Source of the DNA: Candidatus Bathyoplasma sp. NZ
GTDB lineage: Bacteria; Bacillota_I; Bacilli_A; MAG-NZ
NCBI GenBank assembly: GCA_013332095.1
Contig: JABENI010000017.1
Location: 1 to 32,008, forward strand
Direction of reading: 5' to 3'
Length of the DNA: 32,008 nt
In this document: one piece after another, positions 1-25,018 of the stretch
Numbering within the stretch: position 1 is the stretch's first letter
Layout: each line of letters opens with the position of its first letter
The notes under the pieces: model-generated
The model's database searches: none
Seen by the model: the letters and a program-made list of their open reading frames with translations, nothing else
Told to the model about the DNA's origin: nothing
Program-made: the position numbers and the translations under genes

Positions 1-2622
1 TTGTACTATAGAGATACAGACACATCCCAATTTTGCATAGTCTAAGGCTCTTATTTTTAGATTTACTTATTAATACACGATACAGACACATCCCAATTTT
101 GCATAGTCTAAGGCACAAGATTCTATTAGAAGAGATGATAATAGGATACAGACACATCCCAATTTTGCATAGTCTAAGGCTTTCCAATGAATGACATTGA
201 TTGTCTACCAGATACAGACACATCCCAATTTTGCATAGTCTAAGGCTAAAGCATTTTTTGTTATATATCCATTGCAGATACAGACACATCCCAATTTTGC
301 ATAGTCTAAGGCTAAATAACTGTGAAACCGTTGCCCCTGATGGATACAGACACATCCCAATTTTGCATAGTCTAAGGCCTATTATCGTTGCCGTTAATGA
401 TCGTGGTAGATACAGACACATCCCAATTTTGCATAGTCTAAGGCATTTGTAAAAGCATATCACCTACAATTATAGATACAGACACATCCCAATTTTGCAT
501 AGTCTAAGGCTTCTTTTCTAAAAGTATTTAAATCTCCTATGATACAGACACATCCCAATTTTGCATAGTCTAAGGCTGAATATTTTAATGGGTCGTAAGT
601 TACATTGATACAGACACATCCCAATTTTGCATAGTCTAAGGCAATAATAGCATTTACAATTGGACACATAGAGATACAGACACATCCCAATTTTGCATAG
701 TCTAAGGCTTTGCAGTATTTAATATGTGAATGTGGATAGATACAGACACATCCCAATTTTGCATAGTCTAAGGCATTTTTTATTCATACTTGATATGCTG
801 GTATGATACAGACACATCCCAATTTTGCATAGTCTAAGGCGTTTGTTTCGACTTGGCACTGTATCTATAAGATACAGACACATCCCAATTTTGCATAGTC
901 TAAGGCGAGCAAGTTGTATTTGAATTCGTTGTACGGGATACAGACACATCCCAATTTTGCATAGTCTAAGGCTTGCTTATGGGAGGCTTGATAAATTTTC
1001 ATGATACAGACACATCCCAATTTTGCATAGTCTAAGGCATAGACCAGTAAATGTTGGTAGTGAAATAGGATACAGACACATCCCAATTTTGCATAGTCTA
1101 AGGCTTCATCAAATGTTATAAATAAATCTAATATGATACAGACACATCCCAATTTTGCATAGTCTAAGGCTTCATCAAATGTTATAAATAAATCTAATAT
1201 GATACAGACACATCCCAATTTTGCATAGTCTAAGGCTTGTTTTTTTAGGAAATACATTGCTAAGTCGATACAGACACATCCCAATTTTGCATAGTCTAAG
1301 GCTTATTGTATCTCCACCTGATGTGTTCCCTTGATACAGACACATCCCAATTTTGCATAGTCTAAGGCGTTTTTCTTTTCTTCGATTGTATTAATTTTGA
1401 TACAGACACATCCCAATTTTGCATAGTCTAAGGCTACTATTCGCTTCAGCTGTTATAATTACGTGATACAGACACATCCCAATTTTGCATAGTCTAAGGC
1501 TTGCAAATGATTGTTCAGAGTTAAAGATATGATACAGACACATCCCAATTTTGCATAGTCTAAGGCCTGTAAAATTAATAGTAGTCGGTGTTATTTGATA
1601 CAGACACATCCCAATTTTGCATAGTCTAAGGCTTTATAAATCCACCAATACCATACATAAATGATACAGACACATCCCAATTTTGCATAGTCTAAGGCTC
1701 GTATACCAAACTATCAGTTAAAGTCTTTGATACAGACACATCCCAATTTTGCATAGTCTAAGGCTCGTATACCAAACTATCAGTTAAAGTCTTTGATACA
1801 GACACATCCCAATTTTGCATAGTCTAAGGCTATCGCTACCATTTCGGTAGACTTCTCATTGATACAGACACATCCCAATTTTGCATAGTCTAAGGCGTAG
1901 TTTTTACAAACCACTGTTTTTATTAAGATACAGACACATCCCAATTTTGCATAGTCTAAGGCTGTGACATTAGATATATTCCAAGTCATACAGATACAGA
2001 CACATCCCAATTTTGCATAGTCTAAGGCAAGAATTCTGATAGGAGAATATTAAATGAAGATACAGACACATCCCAATTTTGCATAGTCTAAGGCCATCTG
2101 CTAGAGTTTTACCTTTAGTATTTAGATACAGACACATCCCAATTTTGCATAGTCTAAGGCATGATGGTACTTTATTATCTGAGCAAATAGGATACAGACA
2201 CATCCCAATTTTGCATAGTCTAAGGCTAGTAAATCAAAGTCTATATCATTCAATAAGATACAGACACATCCCAATTTTGCATAGTCTAAGGCAGTCGGAC
2301 ATAATAACAATATATCGATAGAGATACAGACACATCCCAATTTTGCATAGTCTAAGGCTTCAACTATTTGTTATTGGAGCGACAAGAAGATACAGACACA
2401 TCCCAATTTTGCATAGTCTAAGGCTATAAAAGATAGTATTGATTATGCTGTAATGATACAGACACATCCCAATTTTGCATAGTCTAAGGCTTTATTACTT
2501 TACTACTGCTATAGGTGTTTGATACAGACACATCCCAATTTTGCATAGTCTAAGGCTTATCTTCCATCGATGTTTTAGATATGTCAGATACAGACACATC
2601 CCAATTTTGCATACTTTAATAC
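1..2622 (+). CRISPR. Type II-C CRISPR array, 39 intact repeats plus one 3'-degenerate repeat
   Basis: Repeats are 36 bp, starting at 13 and then every 66 bp to 2521, with a further repeat at 2587 whose last third has decayed. The repeat begins GATACAGACACATCCC and ends GCATAGTCTAAGGC. All intact copies look identical by eye, and every spacer is exactly 30 bp (39 full spacers plus a partial one at 1-12). Spacers 1105-1134 and 1171-1200 are identical, as are 1699-1728 and 1765-1794. Transcription is inferred to be on the plus strand, because the tracrRNA anti-repeat at 8102-8143 is transcribed from the minus strand and only pairs with a plus-strand repeat. The leader should therefore lie left of the window. 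Protein-like reading frames across this stretch are artefacts of the repeat period. Confidence 0.98.
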
Positions 2623-2805
2623 AGAAGAATCCTTATATAATCCAAACATCCCTCAATTTTGTATAGCATAATAATCCAATCTGTGCTATACTAAGTAGAA
2701 ACTTCACATAGTTCATCTCAATTTTGCATAGTCTAATATTTAATAACTTACAAAATGAGTTAGTGTATTGATACAGACACATCCCAATTTTGCATAGTCT
2801 ACAAA
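2623..2805 (+). repeat. Degenerate leader-distal CRISPR repeats
   Basis: Three further repeat copies follow the main array. Those near 2638-2673 and 2704-2739 are heavily mutated but keep the CATCNC-CAATTTTG core. The copy at 2770-2805 is identical to the consensus over its first 32 bases. They sit 66 bp apart from each other, but the step from 2587 to 2638 is only about 51 bp, suggesting a deletion of about 15 bp. The last copy ends within about 10 bp of the cas2 stop. Decay at this end agrees with it being the oldest part of the array. Confidence 0.85.
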
Positions 2806-2808
2806 AGA

Positions 2809-3141
2809 CTAATCTATGATAATCATTGGATTATCACTGATTAGTTTTTCATTTTCTCTCATTTTTCCTTTAATGAATATCATATTTGTGTATTGATGTT
2901 CTGTTAGAGTTAAAACTCTTATGTCTCCAAATTTAGGATTCATTTTTAATAATCTGTTTAGTTGCTTATGCATTTCTACTTTATTTTTACAAAACTTTGT
3001 GTAAATAGAATATTGAACCATTATATATCCTAATTTTATTAAACTGTTCCTGAAATCTGAATAGTTTTTTTGTTCTTCTTTGGTTTTCACAGGTAAATCA
3101 TACATGACTAATAATCTCATTTGACTATATTTGCTCATCAA
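2809..3141 (-). CDS. cas2: CRISPR-associated endonuclease Cas2
   Basis: The 110-residue protein has the usual Cas2 length and a ferredoxin-like pattern. Near the N-terminus is the first-strand motif LLVMYDLPV, whose Asp is the conserved Cas2 acidic residue. It is followed by a helix (YSDFRNSLIKLGYIMVQYSIY) typical of type II Cas2. Cas2 dimers bridge two Cas1 dimers in the spacer-integration complex. The gene overlaps the end of cas1 by 17 bp, so the two are probably translationally coupled. It is the last gene of the cas9-cas1-cas2 operon and ends against the degenerate tail of the array. No csn2 or cas4 follows, which supports subtype II-C. Internal Met codons near the N-terminus leave the exact start slightly open. 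Confidence 0.95.
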   Translation of the reverse strand: MMSKYSQMRLLVMYDLPVKTKEEQKNYSDFRNSLIKLGYIMVQYSIYTKFCKNKVEMHKQLNRLLKMNPKFGDIRVLTLTEHQYTNMIFIKGKMRENEKLISDNPMIIID

Positions 3142-4039
3142 TTAGATCTATTTCTACAATTTCTGGTGTCAACAATACGGTTTGCTTACCTTTTAAAATG
3201 TTAACATAACTTTTCATCATTTCTGCTATTGCGTACGAAACAGTATAAACTTTATTTTTTATTAAAATTTTTTTATTTACTATATTAATTATTTTTTTTC
3301 TCATTGTAAAAGATAAAGGTAACGATAAACAATCAAAGTTTAAAAAAATATAGTAATCTATTAAAGGTCTAAACGGTTCAATTAAATCATAAGCTAAATT
3401 AAAACAATTAGATTTGCTGCTGTGCCAAATACCTAATTTTGAATCTAATCCATATTTAGTTAATTCTTTTATAATTACTGATACTAAAATCTTATAACCA
3501 TAATTTAATCCAGCATTTACTGCATCATCATAAAAGCGTATAAATTCTGTTCCAAATAAACTATAAAAATATACTTTTGCTGCACTACTTTCCCTATTTT
3601 TTATATCTGCATCCACTACTTCTGTAGCATAATTTTCAAGCATTTCTACATATTTTGTTTGATTGGTTGCTATTTTAAGCACTTTTGATTGATTGAGTAT
3701 TTTTGCTTTAATAATTTGATTCCACAACTCATCTTTTACTTTTTGTTTTAATTCTAATTGTAAATAAAATATTTCTAACTGATTGTAGTGGTTATTAAAA
3801 GATGTAATTAAAGATACGGGAGTATGAAACTCATCACATAAATATATTCCAATATTATTTTTACTACATGTTGTGATAAATCTAGTTGTCATAATTAAAT
3901 TAGGGTCTTCTATTAATACAATTGAAATTTCATCTAGGGGGATAATCAATTCTTCTTTTGTTTCTTTAATAATTAAAATATTACTATTTTTTATTCTTAT
4001 TTTTTCTGCTTTTTTAATTAAAAGTTGTCTAAAACTCAT
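3125..4039 (-). CDS. cas1: CRISPR-associated integrase Cas1
   Basis: The 304-residue protein matches type II Cas1 in length and layout: a beta-rich N-terminal domain (about 1-80) and an alpha-helical catalytic domain. Likely metal ligands are Glu150 (NRESSAAKVYF), His206 (GIWHSSKSN) and Glu221 (YDLIEPFRP), the E-H-E/D set of Cas1. It would catalyse insertion of new 30-bp spacers at the leader end of the array, together with Cas2. It begins 15 bp after the cas9 stop and overlaps cas2 by 17 bp, giving a compact operon. All expected catalytic positions are present and there is no sign of damage. Confidence 0.97.
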   Translation of the reverse strand: MSFRQLLIKKAEKIRIKNSNILIIKETKEELIIPLDEISIVLIEDPNLIMTTRFITTCSKNNIGIYLCDEFHTPVSLITSFNNHYNQLEIFYLQLELKQKVKDELWNQIIKAKILNQSKVLKIATNQTKYVEMLENYATEVVDADIKNRESSAAKVYFYSLFGTEFIRFYDDAVNAGLNYGYKILVSVIIKELTKYGLDSKLGIWHSSKSNCFNLAYDLIEPFRPLIDYYIFLNFDCLSLPLSFTMRKKIINIVNKKILIKNKVYTVSYAIAEMMKSYVNILKGKQTVLLTPEIVEIDLIDEQI

Positions 4040-4054
4040 AGGAAAAATGATAGA

Positions 4055-7000
4055 TTATTTCAATCTATCATATTCTCCTAAAATATTTAATTTATAAATA
4101 GCAATATTTTTAATTTGTGAAACCGTAATTGTACATTGAGAAAAATATTTTGTAAATAATTTATTTTCAATTAAATCTAATTGATCTCCTATTATGGAAC
4201 CTATCTCAAATATTCCACTTGTAAACCCTTTAACGTAAGCAAATGATTTTTGCCCTTTTTTTAATTCTATTTCAATTAAGTCTTGTGGATACAATCTAAA
4301 TTGATAATCATATTTCTCTTTAATTTCGGAAGTTGATAATATTTCATGTTTTATTCCTTGCCCCCACCACACTGTTAATTTAGGTTCTCCAATTATTTTT
4401 TCTGTATTTAAATTTTTCTTATATTTTTTTTCTAATTCAATATTAAAAGTATTTCTTTGAACAAAATAATAATTACCTTCATTATTTATATAGATGTCGA
4501 TACAGACTACATCCGCAAAACGAACATATTTCCCATCTTTTAATTCACCCATTTTACTTACATCACCTGATTCAATCATTTTTACTTTTTTAATTGGTCT
4601 ATCATTATTTAAAGTAGGATATTGTTCTTTTTTTCCTGAATTTAGCCAATTACAAATAGCCTCATATATGTGTTTAGCTCCCTTATCTTTATTAAATATT
4701 TTTTCAACATTTTTTTTATTAATATTTTCTATGCTAACTCTTTTTAATACCAGTCCGGTATTTTTATCAACACCATAGATAGTATCTTTATGTAACCTCG
4801 TATTTCTTCTATCAATTTTTTCTTTAACAGGAAAAATTGGTCGTATATTTCTATACTTTCCATCTTCTGCAAATTCGTCTTCAAATAATTTTTTCTGTTT
4901 TTCAATATCTTGCTCATACAATCTATATTTTACTTCTTTGACAAAATTTTTGTAAGGCAATGGAAACTCATCTTTTTTTGATTTTTCAAACTGATCAACT
5001 TCTACAACTACTCCATTTTCATCATAAAAAATTTCTGTGCTTCCATTATTTTTAGCTTTTTTTATTTCTTCTCGTTGATAACTTTTTGTTGCTCTTACTA
5101 ACAATCTGTTGTTTAAACAAGCAGTCGCAACTGCATCCAGTACGTGATGGATATGATTTTCACGGTTTTTCTTAATCGTAACTTTATTTAGTTCAGTATT
5201 AAACTCGTTAATTAGACATATGAAATAAATTTTTTGTTCAGTAGAAAAATTATATTTAGAGATTGAAATATCATTGTTACCGATTCTCATAAGCAAACCA
5301 TACAAAGAGTCATCACTATCTTTCACAATTTCGTTTATTGTTTCTGAGTTTATTACGCAAAAATTTTCAATCGCCTTATTCAGATTTTTCTCTTCTGCTG
5401 TTAAAGGAATTTTCCCTTCTTTTTTAGTTTTCAAAGTAAGAGTAACTTCTTTTCCTACTTGGACATTCCCAGTTGTAGGAATCATTTTCAAAGAAATTGA
5501 TTTTTCAATCAGTCCTCTATCAAACTTAACTTCATCAACAAATTTATAGTACTTTTTATTTTTATATTCTAAAGAATCAATTGAATGCGTAAATCTATCA
5601 ATTCTCCATTTTTTCTTCATCATGCTGACTGCTTGTGCATTATATCCTTTTATTTCGCCGTTTACATTTAATGTATTTGTTAAAACTTTACAAATATATT
5701 TATTGATAAATCTAGTATCATTTAAACTACGTTGTTTCCATCCCTCATCAATTTCCTTCGCAAAATATCGCGTTTTTTTTCCTTTTGAGATGTGTATATT
5801 GTTATCAATATTTTTTACAAAATTGTTCCATCGTTCTTTTGAAAATTTTAAAAAATGCTCAAACGGTATTTTATTTCCTTTTTGTTGATTTTCTTCGCGT
5901 TTAACCAATGTTTTGTTTTTATAACTATCATCAAAACATCTGGAGTAAGGAATGATGTGATCTACTTCATAGTCATTTGTAAACAATCTATCTTTTACTA
6001 TATTTTTATCACTATATGCACATCTACCTAATTGCTCTTCGTATAATTTATATTTTACCACATCATCTTTACTGACATTTGACAAACTATTAAAGTCAAA
6101 ATCTTTGTAAATTTTGTATTTAATTCTTTCATTATTTCCATAATTATTGAGCATATCTCTTTCAATACTAAATCTTTTTGACCTAATATGTGCCATATCT
6201 CTTGCTGCTTCAATATTGATGTTTTCTGGTCTACCATATTCATCAATAACTGCATTGATAATTTTTATCGTTTTTGCTATTACTCTAATTACACGGGGAT
6301 TAGTCATATCATTTGGAAATAATTCTAATATTTTTTTGATTGATGGTACTCTATCTGCTTTTTCAATACTAATATTAATTTTTGAATGGTCGTAACCTGC
6401 TTTTTCCATCGCTTCGCTATACTCGTAACCTGCTAACATTAAAGGATTTATTTTATGTAATACTTTCAGTGACAAACTGCCTGAATCTGAATATGTGTTT
6501 AATTTTCTGAACAGTTCGATATCTTCTTCAGAAAAATCAAAGTTAGAAACATATTTAACATTGCCATTTTTCATAAAATATTCGGTTAATTTAATATCCG
6601 TCTTATAGTAGGTTAAGCCTGTAACAATATCATCCAATTGCTCAATCGTGAATTCTTTAAAATAGTTTTCATCTTTTTTATTTTTTATTTCACTAATTAT
6701 TTTTTTAAAATTTTTAAATTCATAAAATTTTTTAGCAAGAACTTTATCATTTTTTATTTTTATAAATTTTTGGTCTTTGAAATCAATTTTTTCATCTTTA
6801 GTGAATTCATGTTTTTCTCTATATTTCTTAACACATTCACTAAATTCTTTTCTATCCAAATTTACATTATCAAAAACAATATCTTCAATACCGATTAAAT
6901 CATAAATAATTTTATACGTTATATTATATTTATAATCAAGCACTTTTTGATGTATTTTTTTGATAATTTCTTTATCTAATTTCTCTTTTATTCTTTTCTT

Positions 7001-7915
7001 TCTTTTGGGTTTTGCTGATTTTTCATCTTCTACAAGTTGTTCATCGTTTTCTAAGTTAGGTAAATAGTATCTTAAATTATGTAATTTTTGGAGAAATGTT
7101 GAAAATTCATTCGATGGACAACATTTTGCTGCTCTATTTTCATTTTTCTCAAAGTTACACTTTCCAAACATTGCACTAAAATCGACTTTATATTTTGAAT
7201 CGCCACCAGGACCTTCTGAGAAGTCTCTTTGTGAAAAACAAATTTCTAAATATTTATCTTTAAAATCTTGATCAATTATTTTAAATTCTAACTGTTTATC
7301 TAATAGTACTGTCGCTTCTTCTTCAATTACTGCACGACCAAATATTATCTCATAAGTATCTTTGTTCCGCACGTTTTTATTTTCATTGTGTAGTAAATCT
7401 TCTAAATACTCTGATGGATACATTTTTTTTTCTGCTAAAATAGCTACCATCTTATTCATTGATTCTTTTAAAACTCCATCCTCTTTACTTTCACTAACAT
7501 CTTTTCTATTTGATTTAAACCCTCTGTGTTTAACGTAGTGAACTAAAGCTATTGCTAACTCTTCTTCCGTTAATTTTTCTTTTAGTCCTTTCGATTTTAC
7601 TTGATAAGGATCTAACTCTGTATTATTAAAAAAGTTATCATCTAAAATTAAATTGTATTTATTTTTAAATAAGTATTTAGTTCTTCCAATTCGATGTCTT
7701 CTTCTCCTAACTAATCGGCGTGCACCTCGCGTTTCTCTTCTGGCTGCAGCTGCTAAATTCCCTTTATCATCTTCTAAAGAATCAACTAATAAAACATTAG
7801 CATCAATAATATGGGTCACATTGTTTTCTTCATCTAATCCAACTACTCCCCAACCAACTGAGCCAATTCCTAAATCTAAGCCTAAATTATATTTCAGCTT
7901 TCTTTTGCTTTCCAT
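4055..7915 (-). CDS. cas9: CRISPR-associated endonuclease Cas9 (type II-C)
   Basis: The 1286-residue protein carries the full Cas9 architecture. RuvC-I is LGLDLGIGSVGWG with catalytic Asp14; an Arg-rich bridge helix spans about 59-78; a long recognition lobe extends to about 555. RuvC-II holds NIEAARDMAH with Glu569. The HNH domain contains YEVDHIIPYSR with His653 and a downstream Asn (SYKNKTLV). RuvC-III is HHVLDAVATA with Asp927, followed by a C-terminal PAM-interacting region. All nuclease residues are intact, so it should cut both DNA strands when guided by crRNA and tracrRNA. An extended -10 element (TGC-TATAAT, 7954-7962) and an AAAGGA-type ribosome site precede the ATG. The length is larger than many II-C Cas9s but below most II-A ones. 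Subtype is called from the lack of csn2/cas4 and the array orientation. Confidence 0.97.
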   Translation of the reverse strand: MESKRKLKYNLGLDLGIGSVGWGVVGLDEENNVTHIIDANVLLVDSLEDDKGNLAAAARRETRGARRLVRRRRHRIGRTKYLFKNKYNLILDDNFFNNTELDPYQVKSKGLKEKLTEEELAIALVHYVKHRGFKSNRKDVSESKEDGVLKESMNKMVAILAEKKMYPSEYLEDLLHNENKNVRNKDTYEIIFGRAVIEEEATVLLDKQLEFKIIDQDFKDKYLEICFSQRDFSEGPGGDSKYKVDFSAMFGKCNFEKNENRAAKCCPSNEFSTFLQKLHNLRYYLPNLENDEQLVEDEKSAKPKRKKRIKEKLDKEIIKKIHQKVLDYKYNITYKIIYDLIGIEDIVFDNVNLDRKEFSECVKKYREKHEFTKDEKIDFKDQKFIKIKNDKVLAKKFYEFKNFKKIISEIKNKKDENYFKEFTIEQLDDIVTGLTYYKTDIKLTEYFMKNGNVKYVSNFDFSEEDIELFRKLNTYSDSGSLSLKVLHKINPLMLAGYEYSEAMEKAGYDHSKINISIEKADRVPSIKKILELFPNDMTNPRVIRVIAKTIKIINAVIDEYGRPENINIEAARDMAHIRSKRFSIERDMLNNYGNNERIKYKIYKDFDFNSLSNVSKDDVVKYKLYEEQLGRCAYSDKNIVKDRLFTNDYEVDHIIPYSRCFDDSYKNKTLVKREENQQKGNKIPFEHFLKFSKERWNNFVKNIDNNIHISKGKKTRYFAKEIDEGWKQRSLNDTRFINKYICKVLTNTLNVNGEIKGYNAQAVSMMKKKWRIDRFTHSIDSLEYKNKKYYKFVDEVKFDRGLIEKSISLKMIPTTGNVQVGKEVTLTLKTKKEGKIPLTAEEKNLNKAIENFCVINSETINEIVKDSDDSLYGLLMRIGNNDISISKYNFSTEQKIYFICLINEFNTELNKVTIKKNRENHIHHVLDAVATACLNNRLLVRATKSYQREEIKKAKNNGSTEIFYDENGVVVEVDQFEKSKKDEFPLPYKNFVKEVKYRLYEQDIEKQKKLFEDEFAEDGKYRNIRPIFPVKEKIDRRNTRLHKDTIYGVDKNTGLVLKRVSIENINKKNVEKIFNKDKGAKHIYEAICNWLNSGKKEQYPTLNNDRPIKKVKMIESGDVSKMGELKDGKYVRFADVVCIDIYINNEGNYYFVQRNTFNIELEKKYKKNLNTEKIIGEPKLTVWWGQGIKHEILSTSEIKEKYDYQFRLYPQDLIEIELKKGQKSFAYVKGFTSGIFEIGSIIGDQLDLIENKLFTKYFSQCTITVSQIKNIAIYKLNILGEYDRLK

Positions 7916-8283: not shown

Positions 8284-9357
8284 CTACAGTAAATCATAAA
8301 CACCTATTACTTTAACCATAGCACATTTCGCCTTTAATTTTTCTAACATTTTTTTAGCTTCGGTAGTTGAAATATCTCCCTCTACTTCTGTATAAAAATA
8401 ATATCCCCAGGCTATTCCTTTTACTGATCTTGATTTAATATTGTTTAAACTAAAGCCGTGTTTCGCAATTAAATGCAAAATATCAACTAATCCTCCGCTC
8501 TCAGAGTCATCATCAACGGTAAAGATTAAACTGAATTTTGAAGCACTTTCTCTTCTTTCTTTCTTTAGTACAATAAATTTAGTTTGGTTATCATCTGAGG
8601 TATTTATATTACTAACTAATATTTCTAAATTGTGAACTTCTGCTGTTTCTTTTGAACCAATGGCAGCAATCGTATAATCATTTTTTTCTTCTACTAATTT
8701 AGCACTTAAAGCAGTATTTCCATAAGGTATCAACTCAAATTGATAATCTGCTAAAAACTTCTCACTTTGGTGTAGTGCTTGATGATGAGAGTAAACTTTT
8801 TTAATATTTTCAATTTTTGTTCCTTTAATAGCTAACAAATTCTGTTTAATATTTATGCTAAACATTGCATTGATCTTCAAATCGTATTTAAAAAGTAAGT
8901 CCAGCACTTCTCCGACTTCACCGGTATACGAATTTTCAAAAGGGATAACTGCTGTTTCTACTTCCCCTTTATTTACTCCGATAATAGCAGCTTCGAAAGT
9001 ATTGTATTTTTTTATTTGATTATTTGGATACATTTTTTTTAAAGCAAGGTAAGAGAAAGCACCTTCAGTTCCTTGAAATCCCACAACCCCTTTAGTTAAA
9101 AGGGAATTTTGATACGCTTTAGAATTTTCCATCGTTTTGCTTAAAAAATCTTTGTAAAACGGTTTTAAACTGTCTTCTTTTAAATACTCAAGATTTTTAT
9201 TTAACATTTCTGCTTCTCTTTTTGGATCAAAAACTGCTAATCCATTTTCTACTTTGTAGGCAATGACCTTTTTTACTGCTGCCATTCTCTCTTCGTATAG
9301 CTGGGCAATTTCTCTATCTACTTTATTAATTTTTTTTCTAGCTTCATTTAGTTTCAT
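8284..9357 (-). CDS. pheA: Bifunctional chorismate mutase / prephenate dehydratase (P-protein)
   Basis: The 357-residue protein has three parts. Residues 1-85 form an AroQ-type chorismate mutase helix bundle (starting KLNEARKKINKVDREI). Residues 90-268 form the prephenate dehydratase domain, with VGFQGTEGAFS, the ENS motif at 141-143 and the conserved TKF at 259-261. Residues 272-357 form an ACT domain (HGFSLNNIKSRS) that in this family binds phenylalanine for feedback control. It converts chorismate to prephenate and then to phenylpyruvate. It is divergent from the aro operon. GAGGA lies before the ATG, and a plausible promoter (TTGAAG-16-TAAAAT, 9411-9438) sits about 55 bp upstream. No terminator is obvious after the gene. 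Confidence 0.96.
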   Translation of the reverse strand: MKLNEARKKINKVDREIAQLYEERMAAVKKVIAYKVENGLAVFDPKREAEMLNKNLEYLKEDSLKPFYKDFLSKTMENSKAYQNSLLTKGVVGFQGTEGAFSYLALKKMYPNNQIKKYNTFEAAIIGVNKGEVETAVIPFENSYTGEVGEVLDLLFKYDLKINAMFSINIKQNLLAIKGTKIENIKKVYSHHQALHQSEKFLADYQFELIPYGNTALSAKLVEEKNDYTIAAIGSKETAEVHNLEILVSNINTSDDNQTKFIVLKKERRESASKFSLIFTVDDDSESGGLVDILHLIAKHGFSLNNIKSRSVKGIAWGYYFYTEVEGDISTTEAKKMLEKLKAKCAMVKVIGVYDLL

Positions 9358-9410
9358 TATTGTTCCTCACTTATAAAACATTTTATTAATCTTAACATAT
9401 TTTATTAATA

Positions 9411-9438
9411 ATTTTATCGTTTTTTTTTTAACCTTCAA
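9411..9438 (-). promoter_or_regulatory. Probable pheA promoter
   Basis: On the minus strand, -35 TTGAAG (9433-9438) and -10 TAAAAT (9411-9416) are 16 bp apart. The leader to the pheA start would be about 45 nt, with no T-box or attenuator seen. Confidence 0.5.
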
Positions 9439-9500
9439 TTAAACAAACAGTAAAATTGTTCACTGCGATAAGATTTAAAAAACATTTTAAAATGAAATTC

Positions 9501-9529
9501 TTGATTTTTTTCTATATCTGTAGTATGAT
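9501..9529 (+). promoter_or_regulatory. aro operon promoter
   Basis: -35 TTGATT (9501-9506) and -10 TATGAT (9524-9529) are 17 bp apart. The start point near 9536 gives a leader of about 205 nt before aroB, long enough to hold the leader peptide and the terminator described separately. Confidence 0.75.
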
Positions 9530-9566
9530 ATATCAAACGTTACACTAACGTCGGGAGAGATTCGTT

Positions 9567-9641
9567 ATGAAAAGTTATATATTATCTAAACAGACAACTG
9601 AAAAATTTTATTTTTATTACTATATTACGCCTTTATACTAA
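9567..9641 (+). CDS. Leader peptide of the aro operon attenuator (24 residues)
   Basis: A ribosome site (GGGAGAG, 9553-9559) sits seven bases before ATG 9567. The encoded peptide is 24 residues and its second half is FYFYYYITPLY, with seven aromatic codons in eleven. Across the peptide there are six Tyr and two Phe. Such a cluster ahead of a terminator is the signature of ribosome-mediated attenuation, where scarce charged tRNA stalls the ribosome and lets polymerase read on. The regulated operon makes Tyr and Phe precursors and ends with tyrA, which fits the codons. The stop codon overlaps the 5' arm of the following hairpin (9630-9640). Too short for routine gene callers; the peptide itself probably has no other function. 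Confidence 0.78.
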   Translation: MKSYILSKQTTEKFYFYYYITPLY

Positions 9642-9679
9642 ACAAGGTTATTTTTCAAATAACAAATATAGTATAAAGG
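9630..9679 (+). promoter_or_regulatory. Leader hairpin between leader peptide and terminator
   Basis: CCTTTATACTA (9630-9640) pairs perfectly over 11 bp with TAGTATAAAGG (9669-9679). Inside the loop is a second stem, GTTATTT / AAATAAC. The 5' arm covers the last codons and stop of the leader peptide, so a ribosome positioned there would block it. This makes the hairpin a likely switch element, though which fold is anti-terminating is not resolved by eye. Confidence 0.7.
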
Positions 9680-9716
9680 AAAAACACAATCTAAACAGTT
9701 AGAATGTGTTTTTTTT
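9680..9716 (+). terminator. Attenuator terminator ahead of aroB
   Basis: AAAAACACA (9680-9688) pairs with TGTGTTTTT (9705-9713), a single A-A mismatch follows, then TCTAA / TTAGA closes a four-base loop. Eight T follow directly (9709-9716). It lies between the leader peptide and aroB, so it would cut off the whole operon when formed. Confidence 0.82.
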
Positions 9717-9740
9717 ATTAAAAAAAAGGAGGCTTAAGCG

Positions 9741-10739
9741 ATGAAATTAACAGTTAATTTAAAAAATAGTAGTTACCCCATTTATATCCGAGAAAATATT
9801 TTAACAGAAATCAATGAATACGTTGACTTAAACCGCAACGTAATAATTATTACCGATGACAAAGTTCCCCGTATTTACGCAAAAAAAGTATTAGAACAAT
9901 GTTTAAATGGATATATTTATACTGTCCCCTCAGGTGAAATAGCTAAATCATTTAAGTCCTATACCGAGATACTAGAAGATTTAATCGAAAAAAACTTTTC
10001 TAGAAAAGACTTAGTAATTGCAGTAGGTGGTGGAGTGTGTGGAGATTTAGCAGGATTTGTTGCTGCTTCCTATATGCGAGGGATTGACTTTGTAAACGTG
10101 CCAACAACTATTCTTTCACAAGTTGACAGTAGTATCGGTGGAAAAGTTGGAATCAACGCTTGTGGCAAAAAAAACATGGTCGGTGCCTTTCACCAACCAA
10201 AAGTTGTCTTTATTGATATCACCACCCACCAAACTTTAGACAAACGTCAAATAAGCAACGGTTTAGCCGAACTGATTAAACATGGCTTAATTTTCGACAA
10301 AGATTTATTTAACGACTTAAAAACGGAAAATATTTTCAAAAATATCGATGAGTACATCTACCGTTCATTATTAGTCAAAAAACAAATAGTAGAACTTGAT
10401 GAAAACGAAAGTGGTTTACGAAAATGTTTAAATTTCGGTCATACTATTGGACACGCAATCGAAAGTTACTATGGCATGGACCAGTATTTACACGGTGAAT
10501 CAGTGGCAATTGGCATGGTTCAAATCACCAAAGATGCTGAAATAAGAAATGAAATAATTAAAGTCCTGCGTAAATACAATTTACCAACCGAAGTCGAGTA
10601 CGACAAAGAAAAATTATATCAACTTATTCTTCACGATAAAAAAGCCCATGATGGCAAAATTAGTTTAATTATCTTAGAAGAGATAGGTATATTTAAAATA
10701 ATCGAAATAGAGATTAATAAAATAGTCAATTATTTATAA
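9741..10739 (+). CDS. aroB: 3-dehydroquinate synthase
   Basis: The 332-residue protein is close to the usual AroB length. It has the NAD-binding AVGGGVCGDLAGFVA segment (94-109), PTTILSQVDSSIGGKVGIN (121-139) and the metal ligands Glu177 (GLAELIKHG), His234 (NFGHTIGHAIE) and His251 (LHGESVAIGM). It converts DAHP to 3-dehydroquinate, the second step of the shikimate pathway, in the cytoplasm. A strong AGGAGG site precedes the ATG. It is the first gene of the operon, controlled by the attenuator in its leader, and is followed 9 bp later by aroC. Confidence 0.97.
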   Translation: MKLTVNLKNSSYPIYIRENILTEINEYVDLNRNVIIITDDKVPRIYAKKVLEQCLNGYIYTVPSGEIAKSFKSYTEILEDLIEKNFSRKDLVIAVGGGVCGDLAGFVAASYMRGIDFVNVPTTILSQVDSSIGGKVGINACGKKNMVGAFHQPKVVFIDITTHQTLDKRQISNGLAELIKHGLIFDKDLFNDLKTENIFKNIDEYIYRSLLVKKQIVELDENESGLRKCLNFGHTIGHAIESYYGMDQYLHGESVAIGMVQITKDAEIRNEIIKVLRKYNLPTEVEYDKEKLYQLILHDKKAHDGKISLIILEEIGIFKIIEIEINKIVNYL

Positions 10740-10748
10740 GGAGGAATT

Positions 10749-11849
10749 ATGAATACAACACTAGACAACTTAAAAATAAATTTATTTGGTGAATCACACG
10801 GACCGCTGATCGGAATAACCGTTGCTGGTTTAGCAAGTGGCATCAAATTAGATTTAAAACTTATCAATGATATGTTAGAACGCCGAAAGCCGAAAGGGAA
10901 AATCTCTACTCAGCGTCAAGAAAGCGATCAGTTTAAAATAGTAAGTGGTTACTTCAATGGCTATACTACCGGAACACCCCTGACAATTATTATTGAAAAC
11001 AAAGCCCAACAATCCAAAGATTATTCAAAAATCAAAGATATCTTAAGACCGAGTCATGCTGATTTTACGGCTTACGAAAAATACCAAGGTTTTCAAGATT
11101 ACCGTGGTGGTGGTCATTTTTCCGGTCGCTTAACTGCCCCAATAGTTGCTTTAGGAGCAATTGCCACGCAAATTTTAAATAGCCATAACATTAAAATCGC
11201 CACGCAAATTAAAAGTATTAAAAACATCCAAAATATTAGTTTTATCAATCAACAAAATTTAGAAACAAAGATTGATAGTTTAAACAAATTAAACTTTCCC
11301 GTTTTAGACCAAGAAATTAAAAATAAAATGCACGACTTAATATTAGCTACCGCTAAAAACCACGATTCTGTCGGCGGCACTTTAGAATCGATTATCATCG
11401 GACTAGACCCTGGATATGGCGAACCTTTTTTCAACTCCATTGAATCTAAATTATCGCATTTAATATTTTCTATCCCAGGGGTTAAAGGTATTGAGTTTGG
11501 GCTAGGATTTGCTATTACTAACTACTACGGTAGTGAGATCAACGATTCCTTTTGGATTGAACATAACTCCATCAAAACTAAAACTAATAATAACGGTGGT
11601 CTTAACGGCGGTATTAGTAACGGAATGCCTATTCTTTTAACTACCGCTGTTAAACCAACTCCTTCTATCTTTAAAGAGCAAAACACCGTAAATTATAAAA
11701 CTAAAGAAGAAACTAAATTTACTATTGAAGGAAGACATGACCCTGCTATTATTCACCGCGCAGCCGTTGTCCAAAGCAGTATGATTGCTATCGGTATTTT
11801 AGATACTATTATCTCCCGTGAAGGATATTTATGGATGGTGAAAAAATGA
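10749..11849 (+). CDS. aroC: Chorismate synthase
   Basis: The 366-residue protein contains the family signatures: LFGESHGPLIG at the N-terminus, RRKPKGKISTQRQESD (about 46-61) and the C-terminal EGRHDPAIIHRAAVVQSS. It removes phosphate from EPSP to give chorismate, using reduced FMN, as the last common step. An AAGGAGGA-type site precedes the start. Its TGA stop overlaps the likely aroE start as ATGA, pointing to translational coupling. It sits out of biochemical order, second in the operon. Confidence 0.97.
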   Translation: MNTTLDNLKINLFGESHGPLIGITVAGLASGIKLDLKLINDMLERRKPKGKISTQRQESDQFKIVSGYFNGYTTGTPLTIIIENKAQQSKDYSKIKDILRPSHADFTAYEKYQGFQDYRGGGHFSGRLTAPIVALGAIATQILNSHNIKIATQIKSIKNIQNISFINQQNLETKIDSLNKLNFPVLDQEIKNKMHDLILATAKNHDSVGGTLESIIIGLDPGYGEPFFNSIESKLSHLIFSIPGVKGIEFGLGFAITNYYGSEINDSFWIEHNSIKTKTNNNGGLNGGISNGMPILLTTAVKPTPSIFKEQNTVNYKTKEETKFTIEGRHDPAIIHRAAVVQSSMIAIGILDTIISREGYLWMVKK

Positions 11850-13087
11850 TTGGTCTCGTAGGAAAAAAATTACCTTATAGTTTTTCAAAAATCATTCATG
11901 AAAAACTATCTGAAGTAGATTATAAATTAATTGAACTAAATGAAAAAGAATTCGCTAATTTTTTCACTAAAAAAGAGTTTGAATTTGTTAATGTTACTAT
12001 CCCTTATAAAGAAGCTGTCTTTCCTCATTTAGACTATATTGACCCTTTAGCTAATAGAATTAAAGCTGTTAATACAGTGATTAATAAAGATGGTAAACTA
12101 CACGGTTATAATACTGATTATTACGGTTTTAAATATTTGTTAGAGAGAAATAATATAATAGTAAAAAATAAAAAAATATTAATTTTAGGTACAGGGGGAA
12201 CTAGTAAAACAATAACGGCAGTACTAACTGACCAAAAAGCAAAGAGTATTAGTTATGCTGGCATCGAAAAATTTTCTGAATGTTTACGTTATGAGGATTT
12301 AGAACAAACTACTGATTATCAGTTAGTAATTAATGCTACACCTGTTGGAACAACGCCAAATTTAGATAGTTTGCTAATCAATTTAGATTACTTTCCAAAA
12401 GTAGAATGTGTAATCGATGTTATTTATAATCCTTTAAAAACACACCTTTTAATTGAAGCAACTAAAAGAAATATCAAAGCAGTTAATGGTTTAGAGATGT
12501 TAATATCTCAAGCTTTTAAAGCTGCTCAGTTATTGAACCCTAAATTGACAGTTGAAAATTTACAAAAATTAGAAAAAGAAATCAAAGCACAGCAATACAA
12601 CATTGTTTTAATCGGCATGAGTACCTGTGGAAAAACTGCAGTTGGCATTCATATTTCTTCCCTTTTGAAAAAAAACTTTATCGATACTGATCGAGAAATT
12701 GTCACCAAAGAAAAAAAATCAATAGTTGATATTTTTGCAGAAAATGGGGAAAAATACTTTAGAAAAATAGAAAGTCAAATTGTTTTAGAAAATTCCCTGA
12801 AAAACGATTTAGTAATAGCTACCGGTGGTGGGGTTATTGAAAATGAATTAAATATTAAATATTTAAAACAAAACGGGGTTATTATTTTCATCCACCGCGA
12901 CTTAGAGTTACTCCTGCTCGCGACTGATCGACCATTATTAAAAAGTAAAGAAATTTTAACTGAACTGTATAATAGGCGTTTACCTATCTATCAAAAATAC
13001 GCTGATATCACAATTTACAATAATAATAGTATTAAAGAAGCCGTTTTAGGAATAAAGAGGTTCTATGATGAATATTTTAGTTATTAA
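11846..13087 (+). CDS. Shikimate dehydrogenase - shikimate kinase fusion
   Basis: With the start at ATG 11846 (ATGA overlap with aroC) the protein has 413 residues. ATG 11831 is in frame but lies inside aroC and is less likely. Residues 1-250 are AroE: YSFSK substrate loop, catalytic Lys55 (NVTIPYKEAV), Asn89 and Asp91 (GYNTDYYGF), and the NADP-binding GTGGTSKT at 115-122. Residues 251-413 are AroK: Walker A GMSTCGKT at 257-264, DTDREI at 280-285, ATGGGVI at 325-331 and the RPLL lid. It would reduce 3-dehydroshikimate and then phosphorylate shikimate, two consecutive steps on one chain. Both halves keep their key residues. Usually these are separate proteins. Confidence 0.94.
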   Translation: MIGLVGKKLPYSFSKIIHEKLSEVDYKLIELNEKEFANFFTKKEFEFVNVTIPYKEAVFPHLDYIDPLANRIKAVNTVINKDGKLHGYNTDYYGFKYLLERNNIIVKNKKILILGTGGTSKTITAVLTDQKAKSISYAGIEKFSECLRYEDLEQTTDYQLVINATPVGTTPNLDSLLINLDYFPKVECVIDVIYNPLKTHLLIEATKRNIKAVNGLEMLISQAFKAAQLLNPKLTVENLQKLEKEIKAQQYNIVLIGMSTCGKTAVGIHISSLLKKNFIDTDREIVTKEKKSIVDIFAENGEKYFRKIESQIVLENSLKNDLVIATGGGVIENELNIKYLKQNGVIIFIHRDLELLLLATDRPLLKSKEILTELYNRRLPIYQKYADITIYNNNSIKEAVLGIKRFYDEYFSY

Positions 13088-13511
13088 TGGTCCTAATTTA
13101 AATCTTTTAGGTTTAAGAGAAAAAAATATTTACGGAGACCAAAGTTACAACGACTTAGTAGATTTTATTAAAAAAATTTCTGTCCAAGAAAAGATTGAGG
13201 TTGAAGTATTTCAAAGTAATCACGAAGGTCAGATAGTTGATAAAATTCAAGCAGCATATGGTAAAATTGATGGCATATTAATTAATCCCGCGGCTTATAC
13301 CCATACTTCTATCGCCATCCTAGATGCCTTAAAAGCAGTCCAAATTAAAGTAGTTGAAGTCCATTTATCAGATATTTATCAAAGAGAAACTTTTAGACAT
13401 CATTCCTATATAAGTTTAGTCGCCAGTAAAACTTATTCTGGAGAGGGTTTTTTAGGATATCAAAAAGGTCTTCAATATTTAAAAAATATAATTTTGAAAG
13501 AGGAAAAATAA
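13068..13511 (+). CDS. aroQ: 3-dehydroquinate dehydratase, type II
   Basis: The protein (147 residues from ATG 13068) has the type II fold signatures INGPNLNLLGLRE, catalytic Tyr in KNIYG, INPAAYTHTS, the His of VEVHLSDI and RETFRHHS. It dehydrates 3-dehydroquinate to 3-dehydroshikimate. Two ATG codons are adjacent (13065 and 13068); the second is better spaced from AGAGG. The gene begins inside the end of the aroE-aroK fusion (about 20 bp overlap). Confidence 0.95.
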   Translation: MNILVINGPNLNLLGLREKNIYGDQSYNDLVDFIKKISVQEKIEVEVFQSNHEGQIVDKIQAAYGKIDGILINPAAYTHTSIAILDALKAVQIKVVEVHLSDIYQRETFRHHSYISLVASKTYSGEGFLGYQKGLQYLKNIILKEEK

Positions 13512-13512
13512 A

Positions 13513-14529
13513 ATGATAGTAACAATGAAAAAAGATACTCCTCAAGAAGAGGTCTTAAAATTAAAAAATGAATTAGAAAAATTGAATTTACAAACAAGAG
13601 ATATTACCGGTGACAACTATATCGTCTTCGGTATTGTCGGCGATACCACGATTTTAGATAAAAATTTTATCTTATCAAATCCCTACGTGGAAAATGTGAC
13701 TCGGGTGCAAGCACCATACAAAAAAGCCAACCGCTTATTTCATCCGGAAAACACAATAGTTGAAGTCGAAGGAATAAAAATCGGCGGTAATAATCCGATA
13801 GTTATAATCGGTGGTCCCTGCTCAATCGAAAGTGAAAAACAATTGATGGAGATTGCTAAAGAAGTTAAAAATGCCGGCGCTGTTATGCTTAGAGGGGGAG
13901 CTTATAAACCGCGTACTTCTCCTTACGCTTTTCAAGGTATGGGAATAGCTGGTTTACTGCTGATGGAAAAAGCTAAAAAAGAATATGGTTTGCCTTCCGT
14001 TTCCGAAATGATGGCGGTGGATAAAATAGATGAATTTATCGAACACTGTGATATTATCCAAATCGGTGCTCGAAATATGCAAAACTTTGATCTCTTAAAA
14101 GCCGTAGGTAAAACGAACAAACCGGTATTATTAAAAAGAGGTTTAAGCAACACCATCGAAGAGTGGTTAATGTCTGCTGAATACATTATGGCCGGAGGAA
14201 ATGAAAATGTAATTTTATGTGAACGTGGTATTCGCACATTTGAAAAATACACGAGAAATACCTTAGATTTAAGTGTTATTCCCATTATTAAGAAAAAATC
14301 ACATCTCCCGATTATTATCGACCCTAGTCATGCCACAGGAAAATGGGATTTAGTAGAATCAATGGCTCTAGCAGCGATTGCTGCTGGTGCAGACGGTTTA
14401 CTTATTGAAGTACACAACAAACCTGAAGAGGCGATGAGTGATGGACCCCAATCATTAAAACCCGAAAACTTTGCCAATTTAATTAAAAAAGGAAGAAAAA
14501 TTGCCGAAGTTTTAGGCAGAAAAATATAA
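13513..14529 (+). CDS. aroF: 3-deoxy-7-phosphoheptulonate synthase (DAHP synthase, type I-beta)
   Basis: The 338-residue protein has an N-terminal ferredoxin-like regulatory domain (about 1-70) and a TIM-barrel catalytic domain. The latter includes GGPCSIES with metal ligand Cys103, LRGGAYKPRTSPYAFQG, IGARNMQNFDLL, LKRGLSNT and IDPSHATGKWDLV. It condenses phosphoenolpyruvate with erythrose 4-phosphate, the committing step. In this family the N-terminal domain binds Tyr and/or Phe for feedback inhibition, which would complement the transcript attenuation proposed upstream. GAGGA precedes the ATG. The stop overlaps the aroA start by one base (TAATG). Confidence 0.95.
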   Translation: MIVTMKKDTPQEEVLKLKNELEKLNLQTRDITGDNYIVFGIVGDTTILDKNFILSNPYVENVTRVQAPYKKANRLFHPENTIVEVEGIKIGGNNPIVIIGGPCSIESEKQLMEIAKEVKNAGAVMLRGGAYKPRTSPYAFQGMGIAGLLLMEKAKKEYGLPSVSEMMAVDKIDEFIEHCDIIQIGARNMQNFDLLKAVGKTNKPVLLKRGLSNTIEEWLMSAEYIMAGGNENVILCERGIRTFEKYTRNTLDLSVIPIIKKKSHLPIIIDPSHATGKWDLVESMALAAIAAGADGLLIEVHNKPEEAMSDGPQSLKPENFANLIKKGRKIAEVLGRKI

Positions 14530-15794
14530 TGCGTGTCAAAATTAGTAATTCAAAAGTAAGTGGCACCGTCCAAATCCCCCCTTCTAAAAGTATGAGTCAC
14601 CGAGCAATAGTCCTAGCAAGTCTAGCAAAAGGTACCAGTAAAATTAGTAACTTAATTTTCTCTGATGATATTATTGCCACAATCGAAGCGATGAATTCAC
14701 TCGGAGCAAAAATTGAAAAACAAGGTAACGATATTACAGTAACCGGTATCGAAAACTTTAATTTAAATAAAAAATTAACTTTAAACTGTAACGAATCAGG
14801 ATCAACTTTAAGATTTTTAATTCCGCTTGCTTCGCTATTTGACCAAGAAGTTAAGTTTACTGGTCAAGGAAAATTATTAGAGCGTCCTCAAACTGTCTAT
14901 AACGACATTTTCAAAAAGCAAAATAAATACTTTCAACACAATAAGGATTCAATTGTTATTAAAGAAAAGCTCAGTGCCGGAACTTTCAAAATAGATGGCT
15001 CGATAAGTAGCCAATTTATTACTGGTTTACTGCTGACTCTGCCCTTTTTAAAAGAAGATTCCACTATTGAAATAACTGAACCTTTTGAATCTTCTTCTTA
15101 CGTTACTTTAACGATCAATTTAATGAAATTATTTTCTTTAAAAGTTGAACAAATAGATCCATTAACCTTTAAAATAAAAGGTAATCAACAACCGTTAGCC
15201 ACTGACTATTGCGTTGAAGGAGACTTTTCCCAATTAGCCTTTCACGCTGTTTTAGGAGCGATTAACAACGACTTGACACTCACCGGAATAGATCATAGTT
15301 CCAACCAAGGTGATAAAGTTATCATCGATATTTTAAAAAAAGCCGGCTGTAAAATTGCAGAAATTGAAAATGGCTACAAAATATACAAAAGTGATTTAAA
15401 AGCTCAGCTAATTGATTTAGCTGATTGTCCAGATTTAGGTCCTATTTTAACAGTGCTGGCTGCTTGTTCCGAAGGAACGACTGAATTCATCAATGCTGAG
15501 CGTTTAAGGATTAAAGAAAGCGACCGTATTTTAGCGATGGAAACTAATTTAAAAAAATACGGAATCGACTTTTCATCTACTGCTTCAACGATGACGATTA
15601 CCGGCGGAATTCTTAAGCAAAGTGCAGTTGTCGATAGTTTTAACGACCACCGAATTGCGATGAGTCTAACCGTTTTAGGAACAATTTTAGACGGTGAAAC
15701 AATAATTGAAGATGCGAATGCTATCACTAAAAGTTATCCCAACTTTTATCAAGTAATTAAAAATATTAAGGGAAGAGTTGAGACAATTGATTGA
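14529..15794 (+). CDS. aroA: 3-phosphoshikimate 1-carboxyvinyltransferase (EPSP synthase)
   Basis: The 421-residue protein has the two-domain EPSP synthase pattern: PPSKSMSHRAIVLASL with the shikimate-3-phosphate Lys at residue 20, NCNESGSTLRFLIPLAS, the central DHSSNQGDK, AERLRIKESDR and FNDHRIAMSLTVLG near the end. It transfers enolpyruvate from PEP to shikimate 3-phosphate. It shares one base with aroF (TAATG) and overlaps tyrA. Length and motifs are normal. Confidence 0.97.
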   Translation: MRVKISNSKVSGTVQIPPSKSMSHRAIVLASLAKGTSKISNLIFSDDIIATIEAMNSLGAKIEKQGNDITVTGIENFNLNKKLTLNCNESGSTLRFLIPLASLFDQEVKFTGQGKLLERPQTVYNDIFKKQNKYFQHNKDSIVIKEKLSAGTFKIDGSISSQFITGLLLTLPFLKEDSTIEITEPFESSSYVTLTINLMKLFSLKVEQIDPLTFKIKGNQQPLATDYCVEGDFSQLAFHAVLGAINNDLTLTGIDHSSNQGDKVIIDILKKAGCKIAEIENGYKIYKSDLKAQLIDLADCPDLGPILTVLAACSEGTTEFINAERLRIKESDRILAMETNLKKYGIDFSSTASTMTITGGILKQSAVVDSFNDHRIAMSLTVLGTILDGETIIEDANAITKSYPNFYQVIKNIKGRVETID

Positions 15795-16650
15795 GAAAAA
15801 TTCGAAATTTTTGATTATCGGCTTAGGGTTAATAGGTGGTTCTTATGCTCTTAATTTAAAAGAAAAAGGTCATACCGTTTACGCTATCGATATTTCAAAA
15901 AAAACTTTGGCATATGCCCTCAATAATAAAATTATCGATCAGGGAAGTTCTAATTTAACTGATTTTATCAATAAAGTTGATTATATTATTTTAGCAGTAT
16001 ATCCTCATTTAGTTTTAGACTATCTAAGTAAAATCGCCACAAAAGCAAAAAACAACTTAATCATAACTGATGTAACCGGAATTAAAGAAGCAATCGTCGA
16101 TAAAGCCGAAAAAATCTTACCTGATAATACCGAATTTATCGCTAGTCATCCGATGGCTGGTAAGGCAGTTGGTAGTATTTTTAACGCTTCCTTAAATTTA
16201 TTTAAAGATGCTAATTTTATCATTACCCCAACAACTAACTCTTCTCCTGAAGCAATTACCTTTTTAAAAGATTTAGCAACTACACTTGGCTTTGCTAAAA
16301 CAACTCAATTAATGCCAAAAATGCACGATAGGATGATTGCTTATACTTCGCAGTTAACCCACGCCATAGCAGTTAGTTTAATCAATGTTACCCCAAGTGA
16401 AGAAATCTTTAAATACTCTGGTGATTCCTTTAAAGATTTAACTAGAATCGCTGAAATTAACGAGGTCCTTTGGAGTGAACTGTTTTTAAACAATAAAAAT
16501 AATTTAGTTGAACAAATAGATACTTTTATCGATGAATTGACAGATTTACGGAACATTATTAATGATTGTCAAAAAGATAAATTATCGCAAAAGCTGATTA
16601 ATTCTACCATTTTAAAAAGAAAATTTAACGACCTTAAAAAAAAGGACTAA
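15778..16650 (+). CDS. tyrA: Prephenate dehydrogenase
   Basis: The protein of up to 290 residues begins with an NAD-binding motif (FLIIGLGLIGGSYA) and has the family's ASHPMAGKAVGS and the helical C-terminal half with AYTSQLTHAIAVSL. It oxidises prephenate to 4-hydroxyphenylpyruvate, the precursor of tyrosine. Start is TTG at 15778 or, with better spacing from GGAAGAG, TTG at 15787; both lie inside the end of aroA. It stops right after the catalytic domain, so the C-terminal ACT domain present in longer Bacillus-type enzymes is absent. Last gene of the operon, so tyrosine is the nearest end product. Confidence 0.94.
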   Translation: MRQLIEKNSKFLIIGLGLIGGSYALNLKEKGHTVYAIDISKKTLAYALNNKIIDQGSSNLTDFINKVDYIILAVYPHLVLDYLSKIATKAKNNLIITDVTGIKEAIVDKAEKILPDNTEFIASHPMAGKAVGSIFNASLNLFKDANFIITPTTNSSPEAITFLKDLATTLGFAKTTQLMPKMHDRMIAYTSQLTHAIAVSLINVTPSEEIFKYSGDSFKDLTRIAEINEVLWSELFLNNKNNLVEQIDTFIDELTDLRNIINDCQKDKLSQKLINSTILKRKFNDLKKKD

Positions 16651-24517: not shown

Positions 24518-24760
24518 AAAAAATCCTTAAATTTAATCTAAGGACGAATTACCGTGTTACCACCTTAGTTCATAATTAAAAACAACTATGCACTCTTAAT
24601 CGTTTAACGCACAATTGACGTATTAGCCTCACTATTCGACTAACAAGTTCACAGACACGTTCGTAACTCTTAAAATACTGTTTCACACCAACCAACAGTT
24701 CTCTTTGCTTTTAATAGTTTACTACTACTTCTGTTCTAGACTTTATTTAGTTTTTACCTA
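24518..24760 (-). promoter_or_regulatory. T-box riboswitch 2 (arginine), proximal to argC
   Basis: On the minus strand the T-box core reads AAGGTGGTAACACGG and ends TTCGTCCTT (24541-24570). An overlapping terminator pairs TCCTTA with TAAGGA before a T run (24518-24546). Upstream is stem I, with ACAG / CTGT pairs, the GGTGTGAAAC element and a specifier region reading TTACGAACGTGTC. CGT (24657-24659) or CGA in it would select tRNA-Arg. The core deviates from consensus (AACACG where ACCGCG is usual), but the TGGT that pairs with the tRNA acceptor end is kept. Confidence 0.88.
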
Positions 24761-24765
24761 AAATC

Positions 24766-25018
24766 AAAAAAAATCCTCATAAATATATGTTTTCATATAT
24801 CAAAGGACGAATTATCGCGGTACCACCTTAATTCATAATTAAAAATAATTATGCTCTCAAATGTTTAACGCACAACTTACGTGTCAGCCTGATTATTCAT
24901 TTCGACTAACAAAGTTCACAGACACGTTCGTAAATTTTAAAACACTGTTTCACACCAAACAACAGCTCTCTTTAGTTTTAATAATTTCTACTACTTCTGT
25001 TCATAACTTTATTCTACT
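24766..25018 (-). promoter_or_regulatory. T-box riboswitch 1 (arginine), promoter-proximal
   Basis: The T-box core is near consensus: AAGGTGGTACCGCG, then ATTCGTCCTTT (24802-24830, minus strand). Its terminator pairs TCCT and ATATATG with CATATAT and AGGA, followed by seven T (24766-24808). Stem I begins near 25000 with AAAGTT / AACTTT and ACAG / CTGT, and has GGTGTGAAAC at the apical side. The specifier region again reads TTACGAACGTGTC, with CGT at 24924-24926. It is very similar to T-box 2, so the pair probably arose by duplication. Confidence 0.92.

Follow-up and report, generated by a model that had tools for sequence, protein, structure and literature searches.

A candidate phenylalanine/tyrosine leader-peptide attenuator of the aro operon in Candidatus Bathyoplasma and its counterparts in Erysipelotrichaceae

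Described attenuators and the aro leader

The pheA, trp and his operons of E. coli are controlled by leader-peptide attenuators. They resemble the leader described here in their short ORF with end-product codons, their alternative hairpins and their intrinsic terminator before the first gene; the present host, in contrast, belongs to the Bacillota, and the target is an entire chorismate-to-tyrosine operon. For the his operons of Erysipelotrichales, histidine attenuators have been published (PMC9413887). These have the bacterial order, a tandem-codon leader peptide, and terminator and antiterminator hairpins in common with the aromatic leaders of Erysipelotrichaceae, but they carry His codons before a his operon, and an aromatic version is not described there. 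At hisS/hisZ of bacilli, His leader peptides replace T-boxes (PMC2965389); they differ from the aro leader in their His codons and in their tRNA-synthetase-like genes. Ribosome-mediated attenuation was shown by mutation for the Rli60 ilv-leu attenuator of Listeria (PMC5864092) and is also known for a leucine-rich attenuator peptide of the Gram-positive S. aureus (PMC5794164), both of which differ from the aro leader in concerning branched-chain amino acids and in their unrelated RNA. A first-pass annotation of the locus had called peptide attenuation typical of Proteobacteria, with Gram-positive bacteria mostly using T-boxes, TRAP or protein repressors. A view of peptide attenuation as foreign to Gram-positive bacteria is outdated: published cases from Bacillota concern His (PMC2965389, PMC9413887), Leu (PMC5794164) and branched-chain genes (PMC5864092). 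T-boxes (RF00230) likewise sense tRNA charging but, unlike the aro leader, bind the tRNA directly and have no leader ORF. A literature search found no aromatic leader-peptide attenuator for this bacterial group, and no Rfam family matches the aromatic leaders. Leader-peptide attenuation itself is known; the Phe/Tyr target and the variant are new.

The window, i.e. the whole analysed stretch of 32,008 nt from Candidatus Bathyoplasma sp. NZ, contains the following features around the leader:

8284-9357, minus strand: divergent pheA (chorismate mutase-prephenate dehydratase), an arrangement shared with leader L004
9501-9529, plus strand: candidate sigma-A promoter TTGATT-17-TATGAT by consensus match (-35 TTGATT at 9501-9506, -10 TATGAT at 9524-9529, spacer 17 nt)
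9553-9560, plus strand: Shine-Dalgarno-like sequence (SD) GGGAGAGA of the leader ORF, recognised from the sequence
9567-9641, plus strand: leader ORF MKSYILSKQTTEKFYFYYYITPLY, 24 codons and TAA, with counterparts in 40 Erysipelotrichaceae aroB leaders
9630-9640, plus strand: strand C, the 5' arm of hairpin H1, CCTTTATACTA, overlapping the leader ORF end; the pairing C:E covaries in both subtypes of relatives
9647-9663, plus strand: small hairpin inside the H1 loop, GTTATTT/AAATAAC, with a 7-bp inner stem (9647-9653/9657-9663)
9669-9679, plus strand: strand E, the 3' arm of H1, TAGTATAAAGG, forming an 11-bp stem with strand C
9680-9716, plus strand: intrinsic terminator (hairpin 9680-9713, T8 at 9709-9716), ending 24 nt before aroB
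9741-10739, plus strand: aroB (3-dehydroquinate synthase), first operon gene, ATG at 9741
10749-16650, plus strand: remainder of the operon, namely aroC, an aroE-aroK fusion, aroQ, DAHP synthase, aroA and tyrA (Pfam for aroE-aroK, DAHP synthase and tyrA)

The genes that we take to be aroC, aroQ and aroA were named from sequence and general knowledge. The shikimate dehydrogenase-shikimate kinase fusion lies at 11831-13087 (Pfam). On the other side of the leader, positions 460-7915 hold repeat-derived ORFs (ALDYAKLGCVCI units) with the appearance of a CRISPR array and, beside them, proteins resembling Cas2, Cas1 and a 1286-aa Cas9, which suggest, by appearance, a type II system adjoining pheA.

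The ribosome site, the 24-codon aromatic ORF, the 11-bp hairpin over the ORF end and the T8 terminator before aroB, as listed in the first-pass annotation, are all present in the sequence. Its promoter holds as regards consensus hexamers with a 17-nt spacer; it is a consensus match alone, because promoter-like matches around the AT-rich leader do not exceed shuffles (9 observed vs. 13.4). The Phe/Tyr run FYFYYY occupies codons 14-19 (9606-9623), Tyr24 adjoins the stop codon, and H1 spans this stop codon. The small hairpin in the H1 loop sits in AAGGTTATTTTTC, which is similar to a motif found in subtype I relatives, GGTTnTTTTT. The predicted fold of the 185-nt leader is better than that of 200/200 shuffles (z -3.4). 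By sequence, the window has several features of an attenuator: a short ORF with a ribosome site, a run of end-product codons and a terminator before the first gene. The codons count as end-product codons because FYFYYY and Tyr24 precede an operon ending in tyrA, pheA is divergent, and 41 leaders encode Phe and Tyr but no Trp.

To assess chance occurrence, positions 9358-9740 were shuffled 3000 times with dinucleotide content preserved. The combination of SD, ORF with at least 5/7 aromatic codons and terminator was found in 0/3000, and the relaxed combination with at least 4/7 aromatic codons in 1/3000. A perfect 11-nt inverted repeat is present in 2.7% of the shuffles and a 10-nt direct repeat like ATCTAAACAG in 9%, a chance-level frequency that lends no support to the earlier suggestion that this repeat takes part in antitermination. 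Scanning the window's own genome for runs of six aromatic codons yielded 155 matches, compared to 171 for the reversed pattern, i.e. background. Six aromatic codons alone are unremarkable in this AT-rich genome; the weight rests on context and comparative data.

Positions 9536-9716 quite probably constitute a ribosome-mediated transcription attenuator that couples aroB-aroC-aroEK-aroQ-aroF-aroA-tyrA to charged tRNA-Phe and tRNA-Tyr, a function in vivo that we infer from the parts of the leader and from the comparisons below. When these charged tRNAs are scarce, the ribosome would stall on the Phe/Tyr codons, and the downstream RNA would adopt a fold without the terminator at 9680-9716, so that transcription continues into the operon. 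With ample supply, translation would proceed to the stop codon and the terminator would form. Phe/Tyr attenuation is the best reading because leaders recur, subtype II helices covary and their predicted folding tracks ribosome position.

Recurrence of the leader and its targets in Erysipelotrichaceae

Erysipelotrichaceae belong to the same class as the family of the window. Their 40 aroB leaders nearly all have Phe/Tyr runs and terminators, and a leader plus terminator is found in 34/63 of the nonredundant upstream regions in which aroB comes first, compared to 0.35 in shuffles. Examples of the encoded peptides are MHTSKFYYFYYE, MRKNAYFYYYE, MKTLTNTFYFYFR and MNSYKSNYFYYFYF. Across 41 leaders, Phe and Tyr make up 38% of the residues and Trp is absent (0/552 residues). 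The final Phe/Tyr codon lies 0-2 codons ahead of the stop codon, and a terminator is found in nearly all. The SD is missing in eleven leaders, some of which may represent leaderless mRNAs as judged from their sequence, since a -10-like box directly precedes the ATG in several of them. Leader ORFs without SD include L044, L048, L054, L057, L084, L105, L113 and L143.

A covariance model (R1) was built from 15 subtype II leaders. It recovers the known Erysipelotrichaceae sites as well as further ones, and the new matches bring new Phe/Tyr leaders. One lies before a DAHP synthase gene (L252 in genome G118, leader MIKLDKKGFYYFYYR); others precede an operon for a PF04392 ABC transporter, namely L253 (MNDLVNTALHQVNYFYFIFC), L254 (MKKDKLAIKTFSANYYYFYYS), L255/L256 (MKNINNLNQAQQWSYYYYFS) and L257 (METTKTLLIQHQAYYFYFYFR). 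The L255/L256 leaders have one Trp codon besides their Phe/Tyr codons. The transporter is probably of the type that is controlled by a T-box as TrpX in Streptococcus suis (PMC9382623), and the target set of aro operon, DAHP synthase and Trp/Tyr-type ABC transporter points to Phe/Tyr supply. Outside Erysipelotrichaceae, R1 gave weak matches only; the window's own genome has no R1 match at E<=0.01 and no PF04392 transporter.

Ribosome position and alternative helices

In subtype II, hairpin P2 (GGGC..GCCC, with a short run of U), strand E and the terminator follow the leader stop codon in this order. Strand E (consensus GGCnnTATCTA) has three complementary partners: the leader end C (TTTAGATA); D (TAGATAnTGCC), which makes up the 3' half of P2; and F, which comprises the terminator arm and loop. 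Cognate and noncognate duplexes were compared in 14 leaders: C:E, D:E and E:F each gave p<=5e-5, and the controls C:F, D:F and P2:F gave no signal (p 0.54-0.73). Pair counts in the alignment agree, with covariation scores of 0.235 for E:F (0.158 in shuffles, 0/500 of which reach 0.235) and 0.263 for D:E (0.189 in shuffles, 1/500), and slid controls of both are far lower.

Ribosome masks were applied as an imposed footprint during folding of transcripts truncated ahead of the 3' arm of the terminator. Three states were compared: no ribosome, a ribosome stalled with its A site on the Phe/Tyr run, and a ribosome at the stop codon. In this order, the mean number of pairs is 5.1, 7.7 and 3.0 for E:F, 3.4, 3.5 and 10.7 for D:E, and 7.9, 2.2 and 0 for C:E. 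A noncognate F cuts E:F at the stall to 2.8-5.0 pairs. The predicted states are thus terminator, antiterminator and terminator; they are clear in 8/14 subtype II leaders, partial in L051, L096 and L155, and missing in L050, L098 and L112. The result holds with footprints of -14..+15 and -12..+13 (11/14) and is weaker with -15..+17 (stall above stop in 7/14). In the proposed mechanism, strand E would pair with C in the absence of a ribosome, with F as antiterminator when the ribosome is stalled on the run, and with the freed hairpin strand D once the ribosome has reached the stop codon. This would distinguish subtype II from the E. coli pheA, trp and his attenuators: the stop-codon ribosome frees D for E and C competes for E, giving E three partners. 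The evidence leans slightly towards a wider picture, in which attenuators of this new layout, with one strand and three partners, control an aromatic regulon in Erysipelotrichaceae and in one or more further lineages of the class. The regulon would comprise the aro operon, DAHP synthase and the Trp/Tyr-type ABC transporter, and untranslated and fully translated leaders would both terminate.

The window resembles subtype I in the GGTTnTTTTT-type motif of its H1 loop. C:E covaries in subtype I (p<=5e-5). Candidate antiterminators D:F and E:F of this subtype were rejected (p 0.86 and 0.15), and a sliding scan returned C:E together with a weak signal between C and the terminator (z -3.2), which depends on the chosen frame (p 0.002 to 0.26) and counts as a lead at most. 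In folding of the window itself, H1 is formed or nearly so with the A site on codons 14-18, shortened at codon 19, and gone with the ribosome at Tyr24 or the stop codon. The terminator forms at every position tested in the search for an antiterminator by masking, and no strong upstream pairing partner of its 5' arm was found. The first-pass annotation had suggested folding with and without a ribosome footprint as a check; in the window, such folding gave no antiterminator. Its proposal of a leader peptide that senses Phe/Tyr charging is well supported by recurrence before aroB, DAHP synthase and the TrpX-type transporter and by subtype II covariation. Anatomy and kinship of design make the window leader a probable member of the leader-peptide attenuators.

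A translated, aromatic-rich leader followed by a constitutive terminator would set a fixed low read-through and leave regulation to the promoter or to enzyme feedback. It would agree with a window terminator that folds in all ribosome states and with the lack of an antiterminator among the candidates examined in the window and in subtype I. We nevertheless consider it unlikely, as it fails to explain why 41 leaders keep Phe/Tyr codons and no Trp at a constant distance from the stop codon, why the subtype II switch helices covary, and why the same element precedes DAHP synthase and the transporter.

The leader could also act on translation or RNA stability, with a helix A:D (leader SD/AUG region with the H1 loop) that hides the leader SD/AUG in SD-bearing subtype I leaders, and with the peptide setting mRNA decay or reinitiation. 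A:D does covary in these leaders (p 0.005), and L035-L045 show it in very strong form, yet nearly every leader is separated from aroB by an intrinsic terminator, and the SD-less leaders, most of which have no strong A:D, retain both C:E and the terminator. These findings make this explanation very improbable. In L035, L037, L038, L040-L042 and L045, the helix is long and reaches up to -22 kcal/mol; according to the folding models, such leaders may shut off their own translation.

Least credible of all is a chance ORF in front of an operon that is controlled by another RNA sensor (T-box, riboswitch): the window's own genome does have ten T-box-like leaders, one of them before pheS (recognised from its sequence), but an Rfam scan at 9490-9760 gave no match above threshold and no T-box (RF00230) match, and the chance control gave no hit.

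Distribution, origin and coexistence with T-boxes

Relatives were compared as the first-pass annotation had suggested. The Phe/Tyr codons are kept in Erysipelotrichaceae and subtype II covaries, as expected for an attenuator; the window's own family, however, is without the leader. Of its three other genomes, G001 and G002 have aroB, in both cases inside an operon and with no aromatic leader, so that neither serves as a close relative for covariation in the window. A scan of 18 further operons of the class (looser settings, positive control) gave no aromatic leader, and about 38 aroB loci from its other families had none either. Of 80 named aroB loci covering many phyla, one has a leader, that of Solobacterium sp. 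RGIG615, itself a member of Erysipelotrichaceae.

In the AroB tree, the window protein is placed outside the Erysipelotrichaceae clade (100/98) and near lineages of the class without leaders. On this basis, the idea that the aro operon was acquired horizontally from Erysipelotrichaceae was rejected; because of the same placement, the window leader is either old and lost elsewhere or of independent origin. ArgH, looked at with regard to contig contamination, is carried by few relatives and is hence uninformative. In Anaerostipes sp. 992a (Lachnospiraceae, L157), AroB falls inside the leader-bearing Erysipelotrichaceae clade and the leader is absent; judging from these sequences, the gene was likely transferred without its regulator.

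Two tandem T-box leaders are located before argC in the window (24537-25013, minus strand; Rfam 136.9 and 124.5 bits). With ten T-box-like leaders in the genome, the earlier statement that T-box and leader-peptide attenuation coexist is borne out. The T-box before the gene that reads as pheS (L306, C9:25807-26017) scores 92.9 bits, slightly below the cut-off. Apparently, tRNA-Phe is sensed by a T-box before pheS and by a leader peptide before aroB, an exchange of sensors within one genome.

These leaders would add the aromatic pathway to the short list of amino acids for which sensing by leader peptides is known in Bacillota. The subtype II leaders are predicted to form a compact three-state switch governed by ribosome position, which is directly testable. 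Erysipelotrichaceae are a common gut family, of whose regulation little is known.
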